A DNA stretch of 64,000 nucleotides, from the NCBI GenBank assembly GCA_013376985.1, contig JACABB010000001.1, positions 65,560 through 129,559 of the forward strand, written 5' to 3'. Origin of the DNA: Bacteroidales bacterium (GTDB lineage Bacteria; Bacteroidota; Bacteroidia; Bacteroidales; Tenuifilaceae). Positions within the stretch are counted from its first letter, which is position 1. Every line of letters starts with the position of its first letter. This document shows positions 17,360 to 59,503 of the stretch, one piece after another. The translations under genes and the position numbers were made by a program. Under the pieces are notes generated by a model. It did no database searches, had not been told where the DNA came from, and saw nothing but the letters and a program-made list of their open reading frames with translations.

Positions 17360-18511
17360 ATGGAACTGAAACAACTATACGATAAGGCTCTTGATCTTAA
17401 GCCTCTTTCAAAGGAGGAGGGTGTTTTTCTTTACCTAAATGCACCAACCAGTGAACTTATATTTTTAGGTTCAGAACTACGAAAGATGCATGTTCCAAAC
17501 AATATTGTTACATGGCAAATCGATAGAAATGTAAACATTACAAATGTTTGCATATCTGGGTGTAAATTTTGTAATTTTCATTGTAGCCTTGCCGATGATG
17601 GCGCTTTTATCACCTCTGTTGCAGAGTACAAAATAAAAATTGAAGAACTTCAGCGTTACGGAGGCGATCAATTATTACTTCAGGGTGGTTTGCATCCAAA
17701 GTTAGGATTAAACTTCTACACCTCTCTTTTTAGGGAAATTAAAGGTTTATTTCCAAATATCAAGTTACATGCGCTGGGTCCGCCAGAAGTAGCATTTTTG
17801 GCAAAGGTAGAGAAAATATCTTATAGAGATGTTTTACTTGAATTAATTGATGCAGGGCTGGACAGCCTTCCCGGTGCTGGTGCCGAAATTTTAGTTGATA
17901 GGGTTAGAAAATTTATATCTCCAGGAAAACCCAACTCACAGGCGTGGCTTGATGTAATGGCCGAAGCACACTCTCTAAACCTAGTTACGTCCGCAACAAT
18001 GATGATTGGTCATTACGAAACAGTGGAAGAGCGTATTGAGCATTTGGTTAAAATCCGCGATCTTCAGGCAAAGAAACCAAAAGAGGCGATAGGATTTTTA
18101 AATTTTATTGTTTGGACATTTCAGGACAAAGGCACTAAACTTGAGGAACTTGGAGTAACTAGCAAGGTAACCACCGAAGAGTACATAAGAACTATTGCGG
18201 TAAGTAGGATAATGCTGAACAATATTAAGCATATTCAGGCATCGTGGTTAACAGTAGGTAAGGATACGGCACAAATATGCCTACATGCTGGAGCTAACGA
18301 TTTTGGCTCGATAATGATTGAGGAAAATGTTGTCTCCTCCGCAGGAGCAAACAATAGGATGGATTCATACGGTATCCAAAAGGCAATTGTAGATGCGGGG
18401 TGTGAGCCTCAACTTCGGAACCAGCGTTATGAATATATTGTTTTACCCGAATGTGAGTTTAGTAAGATTCTAACCATGGAGGAACTAAAAAGGCGACCCG
18501 AAATTGGTTAA
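17360..18511 (+). CDS. mqnC: Cyclic dehypoxanthinyl futalosine synthase, menaquinone synthesis
   Basis: A 383-residue radical SAM enzyme. The cluster-binding motif CX3CX2C is at Cys64, Cys68 and Cys71 (NVCISGCKFCNF). GLHPKLGLNFY follows, and DSLPGAGAEIL corresponds to the family's D-S-x-P-G-x-G-A-E signature, which favours MqnC over its relative MqnE. It cyclises dehypoxanthine futalosine on the futalosine route to menaquinone. No other mqn gene is in the window, which is common because these genes are often scattered. It is divergent from pdxA. Confidence 0.85.
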   Translation: MELKQLYDKALDLKPLSKEEGVFLYLNAPTSELIFLGSELRKMHVPNNIVTWQIDRNVNITNVCISGCKFCNFHCSLADDGAFITSVAEYKIKIEELQRYGGDQLLLQGGLHPKLGLNFYTSLFREIKGLFPNIKLHALGPPEVAFLAKVEKISYRDVLLELIDAGLDSLPGAGAEILVDRVRKFISPGKPNSQAWLDVMAEAHSLNLVTSATMMIGHYETVEERIEHLVKIRDLQAKKPKEAIGFLNFIVWTFQDKGTKLEELGVTSKVTTEEYIRTIAVSRIMLNNIKHIQASWLTVGKDTAQICLHAGANDFGSIMIEENVVSSAGANNRMDSYGIQKAIVDAGCEPQLRNQRYEYIVLPECEFSKILTMEELKRRPEIG

Positions 18512-18682
18512 CAACCCTTTAACTGTTTAATTCAAGTTGCTAGATACTCGTTCCTAGTTTCTGTTAAATTGATTGGTACGAATCTTAAACTCTTTAAAAT
18601 AGAGTAAAACAGATAATGAATTAAGATGCTGTAAAACAAACTAGCAACTTGTATCAAGCAACTAAAGTTTTATATTAACAAA

Positions 18683-52480: not shown

Positions 52481-52539
52481 CTATCGCAAAATGCGATAGC
52501 TGAGATGCAGGAGTGTTTCTTTTTAACGCATTTTGCGAT
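52481..52539. repeat. Palindrome CTATCGCAAAATGCGATAG with a nearby inverted partner
   Basis: 52481-52499 is a hairpin (8-base arms, AAA loop). CGCATTTTGCGAT at 52527-52539 is the exact complement of 52483-52495. Two alternative pairings are possible. No T run follows, so it is not an obvious terminator. Confidence 0.5.
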
Positions 52540-52665
52540 TGTGGTGTATTGCAATAAGGTTATGTGTTTTGACTGTTGATGCAGTTAGCAGTGGTTACCC
52601 CTAGGTAATTTTTGGTTTAACTTTGGCTGTTGGTGGTTATTTGGTAATGCAAGAATAGATATTCG

Positions 52666-52694
52666 CCCGCTCGCGCGGATTTGCAATCCGTGCG
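52666..52694 (-). repeat. REP-like palindrome, left copy
   Basis: The minus strand reads CGCACGGATTGCAAATCCGC then a GCGAGCGGG end. Its central GGATTGCAAATCC is an exact palindrome, and the unit matches the two right copies at 53376-53407 and 53482-53512, in opposite orientation. It ends 8 bases from the transposase stop. Confidence 0.75.
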
Positions 52695-52702
52695 TTAAAA
52701 AA

Positions 52703-53272
52703 CTACTTGTATGTAATCAACTTAGAATCTATTGTTATTATATCTAATAAACTTTCCAAATCAGCGTAATTCCTAGCTGAACTGAATAGATAATCCTCTG
52801 GCTTAGCAACAATCATTTCTTCAACAGGGTTTCTATGGATATATTCTAGTTTTTCATAGATAAACCTATTGCTAAATACTTCTACTGCATGATTTCCATC
52901 CTGCCATACCTTATAATCCTGCTCTTTTTTTAGATGTACGCATGAATCTTTGAAATGCTTTAAAAGCCATTCCCTCCTGCTTTCGGGTTCATCCATTGTT
53001 AGCTGAACTATCTGCTTTGAGGTAAACTTTTTGAAATCTCTGAGTAAAGCCGAAAGGCCACCTTCCTTTTCTACCCTACAAAGCATGTGCAGATGGCTTG
53101 GCATCAAGCACCATGCGAAGATAACCAGCCCCTTTTGTTTTTGACAATATTTAAGCGAATTGATTAGCGCCAACTTTTGGTTTAAACGGGTGAATACATC
53201 TACCCAGCCTACTGTGGTTAGGGTAATAAAATAGGCCGCCTCGTTATCCTTTATCTTGTACTTGTCGGACAT
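52703..53272 (-). CDS. REP-associated tyrosine transposase (RAYT, IS200-like Y1 family)
   Basis: A 189-residue HUH-type single-strand nuclease. The metal-binding His-x-His is in MPSHLHML near residue 60, and the catalytic Tyr candidate is in the helix YIHRNPV near 143. RAYTs are domesticated relatives of IS200/IS605 transposases that cut and move REP palindromes rather than themselves. Three REP-like copies flank this gene (one left, two right), the layout expected of a RAYT locus. No frameshift is seen, and both motifs are intact, so it may be active. Confidence 0.88.
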   Translation of the reverse strand: MSDKYKIKDNEAAYFITLTTVGWVDVFTRLNQKLALINSLKYCQKQKGLVIFAWCLMPSHLHMLCRVEKEGGLSALLRDFKKFTSKQIVQLTMDEPESRREWLLKHFKDSCVHLKKEQDYKVWQDGNHAVEVFSNRFIYEKLEYIHRNPVEEMIVAKPEDYLFSSARNYADLESLLDIITIDSKLITYK

Positions 53273-53580
53273 CGGTTAAGATTTATATCAAAAGTAAAAT
53301 ATTTTTGCTTTTCTAGGATGGTTCAGGCTTGTTACAGTTAGGTTTTTATTTTTTTGTTAAATATTCCTTGCTACTCTAGCACGGATTGCAAATCGGCGCT
53401 AGCGGGGTCCTAACTGAGATGGTTCAGGTTTGTTACAGTTAGGCTTTTCTATTTGTTTGCTGTTATATATTCTCTGCTACTCTAGCACGGATTGCAAATC
53501 CGCGCTAGCGGGAGATTACTACTATTTAATTACAGCCTTGGGCTAACGGGGGCTGCCTAATCGATTGTAGCCAGTATTTA
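53273..53580. other. Intergenic region with tandem REP-containing units
   Basis: It is made up mostly of the two tandem units at 53317-53512; the remainder has no gene. It separates the transposase start from the TIR gene stop. Confidence 0.6.
53317..53512 (+). repeat. Two tandem approximately 100-bp units, each ending in a REP palindrome
   Basis: Unit 1 (53317-53407) and unit 2 (53418-53512) both start GATGGTTCAGG and run through TTGTTACAGTTAGG to a REP (53376-53407 and 53482-53512). The REP reads CTAGCACGGATTGCAAATC then a short GC end and CTAGCGGG. Unit 2 keeps a perfect palindrome arm (AATCCGCGCTAG); unit 1 has one change (AATCGGCGCTAG). The outer CTAGC/GCTAG arms also pair. Confidence 0.8.
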
Positions 53581-54915
53581 TTATTTTATTAAACCTAATC
53601 TATATGGTTTTGGAAAAAAAACAACCCTATTATTATAATAAGTAAATATTTCAAAACTATAACCACCTTCTCCGGTTTCATTTTCTAAAAAATCGACTCT
53701 GTATAACTTTTGGTCAATGTTAAAGACATAGTTTTTAACGCACTCAATAGTTCCTCCATTAAAATAGTTACTACCTTTCAATAATTCAAAAACTGTTGCT
53801 GATGAAATTTTATAAGTAGTATATTTCCCCCATAAGTTTATGGCTTTCTCTTTACCAAATTGACTGAATATTTTACAGTATCTAATAAACGCATCGTCCG
53901 AAAATTTTTCAGAGAATAATCTTTGACAATCTAGTTTTGTAGGATGTGCCTCAATAAGTATCTGGTCTATATCAATATTTTTTATTAGGAATTGCTCAAA
54001 ATATTCACTTGGAAATTTATCATCAGTTGTTTTTAGTAGTTGAATGTAACTATTAGAAAAATCAATAAATTCTTGTTTGTGTTTATTCCATGTCACAATA
54101 TCAAAATTATTTTTATTAAGAGTCTTTAAAATAATTTTTGATAACTCATCTAAGAACATTGAGTCATTAACTTTTGCAATTTGAAGAGGTTCTAAAATTA
54201 CACCAACACTTTTATAGTCAATTGGGTCTATTATTACTGGTAAAACATGAGAGTTTAATGCCCATGCAGCTCCCATCTCATTTAAACAGATTTCACTTTT
54301 CTTATAATTTGGACTTATTAATAACAATGTAATTTTAGCATTTGAAATATTTTCCTTAATAGCATTTCTGAAATCATCTCCTGTTTTTATTCCAAAACCC
54401 TCGGTGGATGTACAAAAAATATCATCTTTTGATAAATTAAGTCCAAGAATTAATATTTTTTCTACAAATTTATCAATCAGAATTTTGTCCTTTGAGGAAT
54501 GACTAATAAATATATCTTTTGATTTATTATCAGAATTTAATGTTTTTTCAATTTTTTCAGGAGTTTTTATTTCCAGATTAACTTCTTTGTTTCCTATAAA
54601 TTCTGTGGTAACTTCTTTAATTATTTTGCATAACATATCAGGTTTGTAGTATCCTTTATTTTGCCCATCTACATTAACCCAATCTCTATCTATTTTTATT
54701 CCTGAGTTTTTTATGTCTTCATGGAATTTAGATTCGCTTTCAGTTTCAAATATTCTAATTTCAAGCAAACGATTTATAAAGTATTTTTTTCCATCTAAGA
54801 TGAAATCGTTTTTCCCTTTAAGTATAGCTTCTGCTATAATATTTACTTTTCCTTTATCAATAAATTTGATAAAGTAGTAATTTATCTGAGTCTTAATGTA
54901 GATTATGTATGTCAT
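53581..54915 (-). CDS. TIR-domain protein, possible NADase immune effector
   Basis: A 444-residue protein from ATG 54915 (a TTG seven codons upstream is also open). Residues about 134-265 are a TIR domain: DIFISHSSKDK at its start, IFCTSTEGFGIKTGDDF, ITLLLISPNYKKSEICLNEMGAAW. Glu213 in that last motif is the position of the catalytic Glu in NAD-cleaving TIRs. The N-terminal 120 residues and the C-terminal 180 residues (from about NNFDIVTWNKHKQEF) are unrecognised and may sense a trigger. Bacterial TIR proteins commonly act in antiphage defence. The gene is alone between a RAYT locus and a minisatellite, typical of an accessory island. AT content appears higher than in its neighbours. Confidence 0.8.
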   Translation of the reverse strand: MTYIIYIKTQINYYFIKFIDKGKVNIIAEAILKGKNDFILDGKKYFINRLLEIRIFETESESKFHEDIKNSGIKIDRDWVNVDGQNKGYYKPDMLCKIIKEVTTEFIGNKEVNLEIKTPEKIEKTLNSDNKSKDIFISHSSKDKILIDKFVEKILILGLNLSKDDIFCTSTEGFGIKTGDDFRNAIKENISNAKITLLLISPNYKKSEICLNEMGAAWALNSHVLPVIIDPIDYKSVGVILEPLQIAKVNDSMFLDELSKIILKTLNKNNFDIVTWNKHKQEFIDFSNSYIQLLKTTDDKFPSEYFEQFLIKNIDIDQILIEAHPTKLDCQRLFSEKFSDDAFIRYCKIFSQFGKEKAINLWGKYTTYKISSATVFELLKGSNYFNGGTIECVKNYVFNIDQKLYRVDFLENETGEGGYSFEIFTYYNNRVVFFPKPYRLGLIK

Positions 54916-55215
54916 TTCTTCAATATTGCCTGCCAACTCGTTTTTATATACCCCAAATACATTTGTAAACTCTAAAAGGAATGTATTGTGTCCCTTTTAG
55001 TTTTTTTCCAACTCAACTAGATTAGCTTTCAGCCAATTTCGCCAAGAAGGATTTGTTTATCAAAGATATAATTTATATTAACAATATATAATAGTTTTGA
55101 TTTGTACGAGTATTTGTTATTTGGGTTACTAAGTTTTTAATATAATGGTTTGTATATGCTTAGTTTTTACCCATTCTGGTATAAATTGCTCTTTGAGTTA
55201 ATTGTATGAATAGCA
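54916..55215. other. AT-rich region upstream of the TIR gene
   Basis: Contains the promoter side of the TIR gene. A hairpin CTAAAAGG (54972-54979) with CCTTTTAG (54993-55000), followed by seven T (plus strand), looks like a weak terminator facing away from any known gene. Otherwise nothing is seen. Confidence 0.45.
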
Positions 55216-55278
55216 CAGTTTGCCGAATGCTCCCAGTTCCTATAAAGTTGAGGATTGGTTTGGTGAATTAAACCCTAG

Positions 55279-55319
55279 ATTTCCGAACTTTTTAAAGGTT
55301 CGGAAATCTTTCTGGATCG
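55279..55319. repeat. 41-bp hairpin spacer, copy 1
   Basis: ATTTCCGAAC and GTTCGGAAAT form an inverted repeat around a T/A-rich centre. It joins block 1 and block 2 of the minisatellite. Confidence 0.75.
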
Positions 55320-55424
55320 ATTTGGCAATTTGCAGCGTTCATTTGGCGAACTTAACGGTTCATTTGGCAAATTGCAGATTTGATTTAACGAACTTAAGGG
55401 TTGGTTTGGTGAGTTGTACCCTAG

Positions 55425-55465
55425 ATTTCCGAACTTTTTAAAAGTTCGGAAATCTTATCGGATCA
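55425..55465. repeat. 41-bp hairpin spacer, copy 2
   Basis: Same length and layout as copy 1, 146 bases downstream, with few changes. Its arms extend to ATTTCCGAACTTTT / AAAAGTTCGGAAAT, so the inverted repeat is longer and perfect. Confidence 0.75.
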
Positions 55466-55758
55466 ATTTGGAAAATTGCGGAGTCCATTTGGCAAGTTTA
55501 ATATCGCATCTTGCGAATTTTGTATCGCATCTTGCGAACTTAATCTTACATCTTGCGATGTTATTATCGCACCTTGCGAGCATAATATTACATTTTGCGA
55601 TGTTGCTATCGCATCTTGCGAACTTAAGGGACGGTCTGGCAAATTTCCACCTCAATCTGGCGAGTTGCTGGGTCGATTTAGCGAATTTCCCGGAGAGTGT
55701 AAAGAAGATTGTGTAAACAGATTTTTATTGTCGATATCTGTCTTCAAGGAAATAAAAA

Positions 55759-55789
55759 AACCTGACAGATATTTGGTTTCTGTCAGGTT
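55759..55789. terminator. Terminator of the 55809-59375 fibre gene
   Basis: AACCTGACAGA (55759-55769) pairs with TCTGTCAGGTT (55779-55789). An A run at 55752-55760 gives a T run on the minus strand. It lies 19 bases after the stop. Confidence 0.85.
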
Positions 55790-55808
55790 CTATGTTTTTT
55801 ATCGAAAT

Positions 55809-58800
55809 TTACTTTTTCAACAAAAGTTTTATCTGTTCAAGCTCCTTTTCAAGGCTTTCGAGTTTTTGATCAGTGGTTGATTGTTTTGCAGAAAGATCTT
55901 CAATAGTTTTTTTCTGCTCATCAATAATTTTTTGTTGATCTTTTAATGCTTCAACAAGGAGTGCAGTTATTGGAGCATACTGCATTGTGTAGAATTCACC
56001 CTCCTTATTCACTACTTCTGGGATAACCTTTTCGGCTTCCTGTGCAATAAAGCCCATTCTTATTCCTTTCTCAGGGTTAGTTATATCTTTCCATTCAAAG
56101 TTAACCCCTCTGAGGTTTAGAACTTTACTAAGAGCATTGGGTATTGTTGAAATATTCTTTTTAAGTCTTTCATCACTTAAATTAGCCCATGCTGAAAGTC
56201 CAGCAGCAGTTCCATTTACATAAAAAGTATAAGTTCCTGGAGTAGTGGAATTTATTGCAACTCTTCTATTATCAAACTCTCCCCAAATAAGAGGTGTTGT
56301 AACAGCACCACCGTCAATAATTAGCCTGTTGGAAACTGTTTGAAATGCTCCATAACCTACTTTATACCCAAGTATTACATTATAGGATCCTGTATTACTC
56401 CATCCGGCAGATGTTCCTACATATACGTTTCCTACTCCAGTGGTGTTAACTGATCCGGCGGTATTTCCAATCATAACATTTTCGCTACCTGTTGTAAGGG
56501 ATCCCCCTGCCGATCCTCCTATTAATACTTGTTGGTAGCCGGTTGTATTGCTATGACCTGCATAACGACCCATCATTATATTAAAGTACCCGCTTGTATT
56601 TACCAATCCAGCCTCGGTTCCAATAAAGATATTTTGGCTGGTGGTATTGGTATAACCAGCTTTATCGCCAATTGCGATATTGTTTTGCCCACTTGCATTA
56701 TTCCAGCCAGCTAGGTTTCCAATAAATATATTGTTATAGCTCTGCGTTTTTTTACCAGCGGCATAGCCAATAAATACGTTATTGGTTGCAAATGCTGCAT
56801 TTGATAAATATCCAGCGCTATCGCCAATAAAGATATTGTTCTTAAGAGCTGTTCCAGTATAACCAGCAAAGCGTCCAATAAAAACGTTGTGCTGCCCGGT
56901 TTGGTTACTATACCCTGAATTCTCTCCAAGGAAAAGGTTTGAGAAACCAGTTGTGGTGCTAAAACCGCTTTCATCGCCAATAAAGAGGTTAGAGTAGCCA
57001 GTGGTATTACTTGCTCCGCTCGATTTTCCTATAAAAACGTTACTATATCCTGTAGTATTTGCACGTCCAGCAAAGTAGCCCATAAATGCATTATCAGCAC
57101 CAGAAGAATTATATCTTCCGCTCTCGTTACCAATAAAAACATTGTTATCTGCATTGCTTGTATAACCCGCTAAATTACCGAGATATACATTGCTTGCACC
57201 AATAGTATTGGTTCTACCGCTCTCATTTCCAATAAATACATTGTTTGCACCTGTTGAATTTGAAAGACCTGCATTGTAACCTATGAAGGAGTTAAATTGA
57301 CCAGAGGTATTTGCTTTTCCTGTTTGATATCCAATAAATGAATTATAGCTTGCATTGTTGCTAAAACCAGCCTGATAACCCAAGAAAGTGTTATAACCTC
57401 CTGTTGTATTATTAAAACCAGTTTGGTTTCCTATGAATACGTTATTTGTTCCACTAGTGTTATTCAACCCTGCTTGGTAACCCATAAATGCGTTGTACTG
57501 GCCGGTATTTATCTTACCGCTTTCTTTCCCAATGAATACGTTGTAGCTACTGGTATTGCCATACCCTGCAAGATCACCTATAAAAACGTTACTTGCCCCA
57601 CTAGATCCTAAATATCCAGCAAGATTACCAACGGCAATGTTATTCGAACCTGTTAGGTTGGAGTATCCTGTTTGATAACCAAGGAATACATTGTTGGTAC
57701 CCGTAGTAGTGCTTAATCCAGCCTGATACCCAACAAAGGAGTTATAGTTTGCAGAGCTTGAGTACCCGGATTGGTATCCTAGGAAGGTGTTGTAACTTGA
57801 ATTGCTTGAGTACCCAGATTGATAGCCCAAAAAGGTGTTGTAGTTTCCTGTTGTATTATTTCTACCCGTTTGGTTGCCAATAAACACGTTACTTGCCCCG
57901 CTGGTATTCATCAACCCTGCCTGATAGCCCATAAATGCGTTGTACAGACCAGTGTTTGCCTTACCGCTCCCTTTCCCAAGGAAAACGTTGTAGCTATTGG
58001 TGTTTCCAAACCCGGCTGAATCACCAAGAAAGACGTTGCTAGCACCAGTAGTACCTAAGAACCCTGCAAGGTTACCTACCGCAACGTTATTCGTACCGGT
58101 CAGGTTGGAATATCCTGTCTGATATCCTAAGAATACGTTATTTGCTCCAGAGGAGTTGCTAAACCCTGCTTGGTATCCAATGAATGAATTGTAGATACCA
58201 GTTGTATTCATAACGCCAGTATTAGATCCTACAAAAACATTAAACTGCCCGGTTAGGTTGCCGAACCCTGTACTATCACCAATGAACACATTGCTAAAAC
58301 CGCCAGTATTCATATATCCTGATTTATGTCCGAGAAAAGTATTACGTTTACCATCAGCATTACTAAATCCGCTTTGGAAACCTAAGAACACATCACTAGA
58401 GCCTGTTGTGGTTGCCTGTCCGCTCTGGTAGCCCATGAACGAATTATAGAGTCCTGTTGTAATGCTCTTTCCCGCCTGATGTCCAATAAAGTAATTATCT
58501 GGAGTAAGTCGTAGGAACGGATCTCCTGAGCCCTTGGCTTGGTTTGATAGCCCCCCAACGGCAAACCCTCCTTTAGCATTCTTTGCAACAGATTGATTTA
58601 CATAGATTCTTGCGCTATCAGGTGCAACGAACATCATATTTCTAGAGACAACCGTCTTGGCCTGATTTGATAGCCCTCCAACAGCGAATCCTCCCTTTGC
58701 TCCTTTAACCGTAGGGACTTCTTTAACCCATACACGGGCACTATCTGGAGTAATCCGAAAATATTCTGCCTGTCCTGCTTTAGCTTGGTTGGAAAGCCCA

Positions 58801-59375
58801 CCAACAGCAAATCCTCCCTTTGCCCCTTTGATTTGCGTGTCTTCCACGTAAACCCTAACTCCTCCTTGGTAAACTCCGAATACTACCTGCCCACTCTTGT
58901 TCTTTACCTCGAAGATGGGATCATCATCAAGGGCGGTGGGAGTACTGACTATTTCCTTAGCATTCTCAGCATATAAAGCATATGGAACTGATTGTAATTG
59001 CGTGTGGTTACCCATTGAGGTGTAAGCATTACCCCCAGCAGGATCAATTTCAAGTTTGATATAGATATCTCCGTTCATCCATGGAATACTTGAGAATGTG
59101 TTAACTCCTACCTTTGTTCCGCTTCCAATATTTAGGGTGATAAGGCCTTCTCCGCTTGAGGTAGGGGTTTGCGTTTCGGTGTAGTAGGCAGTACCCGATA
59201 TATTCTCTAGTGTAATTCTCACCCCAATAATCTTACTCGCAATTGGTTTACCGCTGCCATCGCGAATAATTGCTTGGTAAGAGATTCCTTGAGGAACTTG
59301 TGAGAAACCTGTTACAGATATGCAAAGTGCAAAGAAAAAGAGCACAAGTTTGCAGGTAATACAATTCGTTTTCAT
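55809..59375 (-). CDS. Giant secreted fibre protein with long head-repeat array and S74 domain
   Basis: A 1188-residue protein from ATG 59375, which gives a clean signal peptide (MKTNCITCKLVLFFFALCIS, cut near GFSQ). The shared N-terminal domain (PQGISYQAIIRDGSG to SVPYALYA, about 27-140) is followed by three GAKGG-type modules (about 180-275; the third core is NAKGGFAVGGLSNQAK). About 290-1010 is an unbroken run of head repeats of the form NVFIGNQTGRNNTTG, with larger blocks repeated internally (the phrase GVYNSFIGYQAG-like then GYSNLTG-NN recurs). The S74 chaperone (about 1065-1188) has LSDERLKKNI and a terminal coiled coil. It is almost the same as the next gene up to about residue 300. 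Confidence 0.85.
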   Translation of the reverse strand: MKTNCITCKLVLFFFALCISVTGFSQVPQGISYQAIIRDGSGKPIASKIIGVRITLENISGTAYYTETQTPTSSGEGLITLNIGSGTKVGVNTFSSIPWMNGDIYIKLEIDPAGGNAYTSMGNHTQLQSVPYALYAENAKEIVSTPTALDDDPIFEVKNKSGQVVFGVYQGGVRVYVEDTQIKGAKGGFAVGGLSNQAKAGQAEYFRITPDSARVWVKEVPTVKGAKGGFAVGGLSNQAKTVVSRNMMFVAPDSARIYVNQSVAKNAKGGFAVGGLSNQAKGSGDPFLRLTPDNYFIGHQAGKSITTGLYNSFMGYQSGQATTTGSSDVFLGFQSGFSNADGKRNTFLGHKSGYMNTGGFSNVFIGDSTGFGNLTGQFNVFVGSNTGVMNTTGIYNSFIGYQAGFSNSSGANNVFLGYQTGYSNLTGTNNVAVGNLAGFLGTTGASNVFLGDSAGFGNTNSYNVFLGKGSGKANTGLYNAFMGYQAGLMNTSGASNVFIGNQTGRNNTTGNYNTFLGYQSGYSSNSSYNTFLGYQSGYSSSANYNSFVGYQAGLSTTTGTNNVFLGYQTGYSNLTGSNNIAVGNLAGYLGSSGASNVFIGDLAGYGNTSSYNVFIGKESGKINTGQYNAFMGYQAGLNNTSGTNNVFIGNQTGFNNTTGGYNTFLGYQAGFSNNASYNSFIGYQTGKANTSGQFNSFIGYNAGLSNSTGANNVFIGNESGRTNTIGASNVYLGNLAGYTSNADNNVFIGNESGRYNSSGADNAFMGYFAGRANTTGYSNVFIGKSSGASNTTGYSNLFIGDESGFSTTTGFSNLFLGENSGYSNQTGQHNVFIGRFAGYTGTALKNNIFIGDSAGYLSNAAFATNNVFIGYAAGKKTQSYNNIFIGNLAGWNNASGQNNIAIGDKAGYTNTTSQNIFIGTEAGLVNTSGYFNIMMGRYAGHSNTTGYQQVLIGGSAGGSLTTGSENVMIGNTAGSVNTTGVGNVYVGTSAGWSNTGSYNVILGYKVGYGAFQTVSNRLIIDGGAVTTPLIWGEFDNRRVAINSTTPGTYTFYVNGTAAGLSAWANLSDERLKKNISTIPNALSKVLNLRGVNFEWKDITNPEKGIRMGFIAQEAEKVIPEVVNKEGEFYTMQYAPITALLVEALKDQQKIIDEQKKTIEDLSAKQSTTDQKLESLEKELEQIKLLLKK
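58531..58784 (-). repeat. 254-bp tract identical to 60997-61250
   Basis: By direct line comparison I find no difference between this tract and 60997-61250. It covers the second and third GAKGG modules and part of the first linker. The sequence on both sides diverges at once, largely by synonymous changes (for example gcttggttgg against gcctgattag). This is the pattern of recent gene conversion. Confidence 0.8.
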
Positions 59376-59503
59376 GTTCAAATGAATTTTATTTACGTGG
59401 GAAAGATACTGTATTAACAAAGAGATTTAATCGGTTGTTTTAGTATTTTGATTAAAAGAGCAATGTTAGTATAGAAAAAGGCAAAAAAAACTGAACCAAT
59501 AAA

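Follow-up and report, generated by a model that had tools for sequence, protein, structure and literature searches.

The window, by which we mean the whole 64,000-nucleotide stretch analysed from a Bacteroidales genome of the family Tenuifilaceae (G000), carries a tandem array of 21-bp units between two genes on the minus strand. One encodes a TIR-domain protein (53581–54936) whose best PADLOC match is spbK, with ThsB weaker; the other encodes a repeat-rich protein with a Peptidase_S74 (endosialidase chaperone) C-terminus (55809–59420) and has its 3′ end towards the array, directly followed by an inverted repeat (55750–55798, minus strand) that looks terminator-like by eye. Directly before the divergent accessory gene lies an att-like imperfect palindrome ending in ...ACGAGTT, here called the P element (54921–55000, minus strand, the end coordinate being approximate), and the distance from P to the array is about 250–300 bp. 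On the plus strand a leader (55001–55253) runs into roughly one 21-bp-type unit (55254–55276), which is followed by five units (55316–55420) with the core ATTTGGCRAA and then by eleven units (55462–55692). Between the blocks stand two hairpin copies, AGATTTCCGAACTTTTTAAAAGTTCGGAAATCT, the first (55277–55309) 94% self-complementary and belonging to a dispersed family, the second (55423–55455) perfect with 16-bp arms.

The preliminary description of this DNA had reported an exact period of 21 in three blocks of 3, 5 and 11 units, and the two hairpin copies did not appear in it. Match-lag analysis gave top lags of 42 and 21 in both the middle block (69% and 57% matches) and the last block (61% and 59%), with every next-best lag in the window array at or below 37%, and TRF called 55320–55409 and 55498–55627 with periods of 21 and 42. 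The period stands, as do the blocks of five and eleven units, for which match-lag analysis and alignment gave a spacing of exactly 21. In the eleven-unit block the aligner put one gap at the block edge, leaving the spacing unaffected, and the core shifts from ATTTGGCAAG to CATCTTGCGAAC and back with the register kept. The supposed first block of three units is mostly conserved leader, leaving only about one unit at 55254–55276, and the pair of TTTG-type cores in it, at 55219 and 55259, lie 40 bp apart as read off the match-lag output. The array also carries a 146-bp higher-order duplication. Judged by the match lags, eleven successive units at about 60% identity and constant spacing are far beyond chance.

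Leader and array occur together in the window (contig C1), twice in G000 C42, in C48, where only part of the leader is present, and in C21 of G002, a second species of the same genus, at the orthologue of the window site. Arrays are also present in G002 C53 and C11, next to sequence that is leader-like by eye comparison, and G000 C52 has an array related to that of the window. Searching 60 genomes with the array returned a match in four; the array itself was found in G000 and G002, G004 had the hairpin alone and G013 gave one marginal 25-base match. Within G000 the array query produced 74 matches, the majority on the hairpin and often on both strands at one place. This 33-bp hairpin, TTCCGAACTTTTTAAAAGTTCGGAA, is dispersed, with about 40 loci in G000 besides the two window copies. 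The hairpin-bearing segment measures 63 bp from flanking core to flanking core in G000 C48 and G002 C53 and 62 bp in the window, and it reads as shortened in copy 2 of G000 C42.

A separate palindrome, TATCGCA-N3-TGCGATA, is found at 52482–52498 and at 56 places in 1.13 Mb of G000 and G002, and is the top-ranked over-represented gapped palindrome in both genomes examined. In 464 kb of G000 there are 18 occurrences of its inner form, TCGCA-N3-TGCGA, four of them supplied by window-array units (block C, variants of the palindrome), and 667 kb of G002 contain 38; permuted palindromes average 0.45 and 0.85. Among cases with an arm spacing of 0–15, the spacing was 3 in 56 of 59.

The window copy is a leader-plus-array form beside a site where defence genes are exchanged. 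At 52664–54946 the window has the Y1 transposase and TIR genes, and at the orthologous site (C21, locus L083) G002 has Gabija genes and another pair instead, which we take from our own ORF reading to be nucleotidyltransferase/HEPN-like. The flanks common to both genomes comprise the leader, the array, the Peptidase_S74 gene and most of P, and the ACGAGTT end of P is unrecognisable at the G002 site. In 53317–53512 and 52703–53272 we observed a 106-bp tandem duplication with an GATTGCAAATC hairpin adjoining the Y1 (IS200-like) transposase gene, perhaps REP sequences of the transposase.

A search for P gave 26 matches, which became 22 loci once the weak L093, L096, L110 and L115 were removed; we used 20 distinct P sites because L113 offers no P that could be used and the match at L106 is that of L100 again. 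Nine of the 22 scanned loci have an array of period 21, 42 or 63 located 100–720 bp upstream, several of the nine being paralogues of one another, and one of the nine has a 35-bp array as its neighbour. The sole array downstream of P (L103) is inside a gene. Arrays are enriched upstream of P-linked accessory or defence genes, and their siting is non-random. P stands before diverse accessory and defence genes at L036, L040, L041, L085–L088, L314, L315 and L316, and four times it was paired, with two copies in the same orientation 1–3 kb apart. The P composite folds into an imperfect palindrome, in which candidate R'' and R' boxes were compared by eye. In G000 C59 a truncated tyrosine recombinase gene is followed after 16 bp by a full P. 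Recombinase genes of G003 and G004 have palindromes with the ACGAGTT end behind them, which were recognised by motif and by eye and missed by the P profile. No viral contigs carrying the recombinase were found.

To describe unit length we collected 252 spacings from 24 segments of 21 arrays, which were picked by us as 21-bp arrays and include three orthologous pairs, paralogues and targeted loci. Of these spacings 245 were 21 bp and seven were 20 bp, with none longer, and against their array consensus the segments carried 1480 substitutions (a mismatch of about 26%) and eight indel bases. Three additional arrays (L339, L340 and L341) gave 46 of 47 spacings at 21 and one at 20, with 26 of 26 at 21 in L339 and L341. 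The preliminary description had proposed looking for units of other lengths in relatives; among the arrays measured, the only departures from 21 were these spacings of 20, seven of 252 and one of 47. A permissive gap cost raised the count to 165 indel bases, with 219 of 251 spacings at 21. We adopted the stricter setting, taking most of the permissive gaps to be compensating pairs and calibrating the spacing calls on simulated arrays, in which the strict caller reported an off-21 share of 0.348 against a true 0.355.

As a neutral standard we used non-ORF orthologous alignments of G000 and G002, which held 88 indel events per 907 substitutions; these were BLAST alignments with a different gap cost in which the orthologous arrays were left unmasked. 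Arrays simulated at this indel ratio had 19–36% of their units off 21, depending on divergence, so the observed non-21 spacings are roughly 7- to 13-fold rarer than in neutral simulation. Ascertainment is an unlikely explanation because at all three simulated divergences TRF picked up 150 of 150 irregular arrays. The survey below used the lag scan, which is less sensitive to irregular arrays and found 147, 132 and 100 of 150.

Array discovery combined TRF on selected loci with a lag scan of arbitrarily placed stretches, and it yielded additional arrays whose units are quite unlike in sequence and whose period is mostly 21, 42 or 63. The final survey covered non-ORF arrays in 1.40 Mb of G000 and G002, two species of the genus, with the window included. 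Among nine arrays with a period of at least 18, seven were multiples of 21 (42, 63, 63, 105, 42, 42 and 42), or six of eight when the window's own array is set aside; the exceptions had periods of 32 and 18, and there were five more arrays of period 14 or 16. The binomial value of 1e-8 for the genus periods presumes uniform periods and independent arrays and is a guide only. In 360 kb from the same family both arrays were at 21 or 42, and in 1.54 Mb from other Bacteroidales three of seven were multiples of 21, the rest having periods of 23, 23, 28 and 41. TRF run on the survey DNA, again for periods of at least 18, gave multiples of 21 in 7 of 13 arrays in the genus, one of two in the family and 3 of 11 in other Bacteroidales. 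The survey's ORF filter removes arrays inside long open frames, including a family-2 21-bp array in L219, and array L157 (period 21) was left out as it sits within a 96-aa ORF that we read as TatA-like. Another departure from 21 in the genus is the 35-bp array beside G002 C11.

In some of the 42-bp arrays (L129 at 18371–18544, L144 and L089) lag 21 gives few matches or none. The one in L089 (983–1293, G000 C23) is a tandem repeat of about seven copies with a palindromic unit, ATTACCATTAT...ATAATGGTAAT. Comparing 15 unit profiles in 105 pairs, we found 15 pairs alike at p ≤ 0.05, made up of all six pairs within family 1 and 9 of the 99 others. Counting the window's own, family 1 arrays were found in two of 60 genomes, family 2 in two of 40 and family 3 in one of 40. 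A shared sequence origin of all unit families finds no support outside family 1, even though one array, L340 (1476–1941, G000 C7), joins two families: its 22 units begin as family 2 and then change to a wholly different unit, and despite this mid-array change 20 of its 21 spacings are 21 bp and one is 20 bp. An origin from 7-nt repeats or half-turn sub-units was rejected, since neither 7 nor 10 emerged as a sub-period (mean z 0.29 and −0.19). The description of these arrays as non-coding, length-locked and free in sequence, with several families, is well supported for G000 and G002; that the class extends to the family and the order is only suggested.

The main rival to a functional reading is that the arrays are functionless minisatellite passengers, which grow and shrink by slippage, spread in a MITE-like manner with their leader and owe their 21-bp unit to an ancestral array. 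Drift in sequence would then be neutral, and length would seem fixed by descent or by a mutational bias against indels. We consider this a serious possibility, though a somewhat doubtful one. It agrees with the divergence between orthologues, where the arrays (27/229 and 19/223) change much as their surroundings do (leader 33/221, flank 9/115), with a 42-bp difference in length between orthologous arrays, with the drift of L340 from one unit family to another, with the existence of leader-array paralogues and with the neutral simulation, which also yields higher-order periods of 42 and 63. It does not account well for the 7- to 13-fold shortage of non-21 spacings relative to that simulation, nor for the non-random siting of the arrays upstream of P.

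Alternatively, the array could be iteron-like and sequence-specific, its units serving as operators for one regulator or nucleoid protein and lying two turns apart. The conserved columns do cluster as a core (p = 0.001 for the mean lag-1 autocorrelation of 14 segments), and the block C units resemble the over-represented TATCGCA-N3-TGCGATA. However, the cores vary from array to array, and the focus of the preliminary description on a TTGCGAA core was misplaced because the cores of other arrays differ from it. Purifying selection on the core was not seen between orthologues, where conserved columns were not spared (pooled rho −0.10, p = 0.42, from three segments only), and no binding site is demonstrated for this reason. 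Dyad symmetry is also not general among the unit profiles, with 1 of 14 at p < 0.05, and we regard this explanation as unlikely. A putative structured non-coding RNA built of repeated small hairpins (TCGCA-TCT-TGCGA and the 33-bp hairpin) seems quite improbable: the 33-bp hairpins are present and the block C units are self-complementary as read off the match-lag output, but this lack of general dyad symmetry speaks against it, and Rfam gave six sub-threshold matches in 52500–56000 with no family reaching its gathering score. Least credible of all is a heptad-repeat coiled-coil peptide of seven codons per unit, which the preliminary description had offered and for which each window block does have open frames (e.g., xHLANLx), as variability in the 16 segments did not follow codon position (combined p = 0.67), open frames occurred in 9 of 16 segments against a chance expectation of 9.0, all six frames were stopped in the other seven and the reading frames change across the window hairpins, ruling out coding heptads for the class.

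We prefer to read the window array as a non-coding intergenic minisatellite, an element kept for its helical geometry over its sequence, and we place this reading just short of evenly balanced. The preliminary description had named DNA geometry as one of the things that might be kept, and this fits a constrained length and a free sequence across many arrays of different sequence, while the mechanism is one that we infer. Two turns of B-DNA take up 21 bp. The unit length may stay at 21 because each 21 bp shows one helical face again; on such a shared face, small bends could accumulate and/or a low-specificity DNA-binding or wrapping protein could align. An array aligned in this way would make a bent stretch or a nucleoprotein segment upstream of the accessory gene, by which that gene would be tuned or silenced.

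Bending was predicted from wedge angles, and in this comparison of 18 arrays (113–521 bp) with 231-bp genomic windows, 10 arrays had a predicted coherent bending above the 95th percentile of the genomic windows. Predicted bending was lower at both period 20 (units cut) and period 22 (units stretched) in 11 of 18. Real units did not exceed column-permuted 21-bp ones in predicted curvature (3 of 18 arrays at p < 0.05; mean p 0.48), so in this model most of the predicted bend arises from phasing and not from the letters, and selection for intrinsic unit curvature is unsupported beyond phasing. Bending alone is an incomplete answer because some arrays (L126, C39, L144, L089 and L262) are predicted to be nearly straight. 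The geometric reading is further weakened by the small number of genomes in which arrays of families 1 to 3 were found, by the other periods in the genus, by the 42-bp arrays with little or nothing at lag 21, by the unspared conserved columns and by the 219 of 251 spacings at 21 under the permissive gap cost.

More tentatively, and as a conjecture that we hold with some doubt, the genus may have a sequence-independent 21-bp ruler, often upstream of exchangeable anti-phage genes, for which any sequence would serve if the unit equals two turns. It might be kept by a nucleoprotein that reads the spacing or by an enzyme that writes or repairs in 21-nt steps. If so, length conserved without sequence would be direct evidence for selection on the geometry of non-coding DNA, at a time when bacterial minisatellites are commonly regarded as neutral or as single families, and the siting by a defence-gene exchange site would tie the arrays to the control of newly acquired immune genes.

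Several known systems share features with this locus. CRISPR arrays are likewise intergenic direct repeats adjoining a leader, but the window array has no unique spacers, its units being contiguous, and the three neighbour proteins scanned are not Cas, in agreement with the preliminary description. Plasmid replication iterons and parC-type centromere arrays are direct repeats at roughly whole helical turns, as here; in contrast to them, the units vary between arrays and the conserved columns are unspared between orthologues, and none of the three neighbour proteins scanned (TIR, Y1 transposase and Peptidase_S74) is a Rep or Par protein. For P only, integron cassettes offer a likeness, with a palindrome before diverse accessory genes, variable sequence past GTT and recombinase genes nearby. 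The difference lies in the recombinases, of which none in the five genus genomes exceeded the 265-bit cut-off for the integron integrase TIGR02249, the best reaching 107 bits, and in the P profile missing the G003 and G004 sites. All 14 control genomes likewise give sub-cut-off matches. Integron membership of P was rejected with the integrase under this cut-off, and P may possibly belong to a cassette system of Bacteroidales that resembles integrons but has a non-canonical integrase. For Bacteroidetes proper, a single complete integron is reported, in Salinibacter ruber (PMC9024848).

No report of a length-locked 21-bp array class was among the best-ranked matches of our literature search, a result that does not prove absence. 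The preliminary description had called the array no known repeat class, which is nearly right, as there is a close analogue with a 23-nt unit. This is BrickBuilt, a MITE minisatellite of Porphyromonas gingivalis, also in the Bacteroidales, described as a leader with a spacer-less tandem array in several intergenic copies per genome (PMC4596501). Its units are imperfect, with conserved and variable positions, and its leader and tail have promoter activity in E. coli; it is a single family with 0–11% mismatches and 0–6% indels per element, a tail and terminal inverted repeats (PMC4596501). The arrays reported here differ in having a 21-nt unit (245 of 252 spacings at 21, seven at 20), unit sequences of several unrelated kinds, a mismatch of about 26% to the array consensus and hardly any shift of register, and no BrickBuilt-type tail or terminal inverted repeat was recognised around the window copy (55000–55810). 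Both are multi-copy, intergenic arrays of contiguous units with a common leader in Bacteroidales, and BrickBuilt is the closest known system to the 21-bp arrays.
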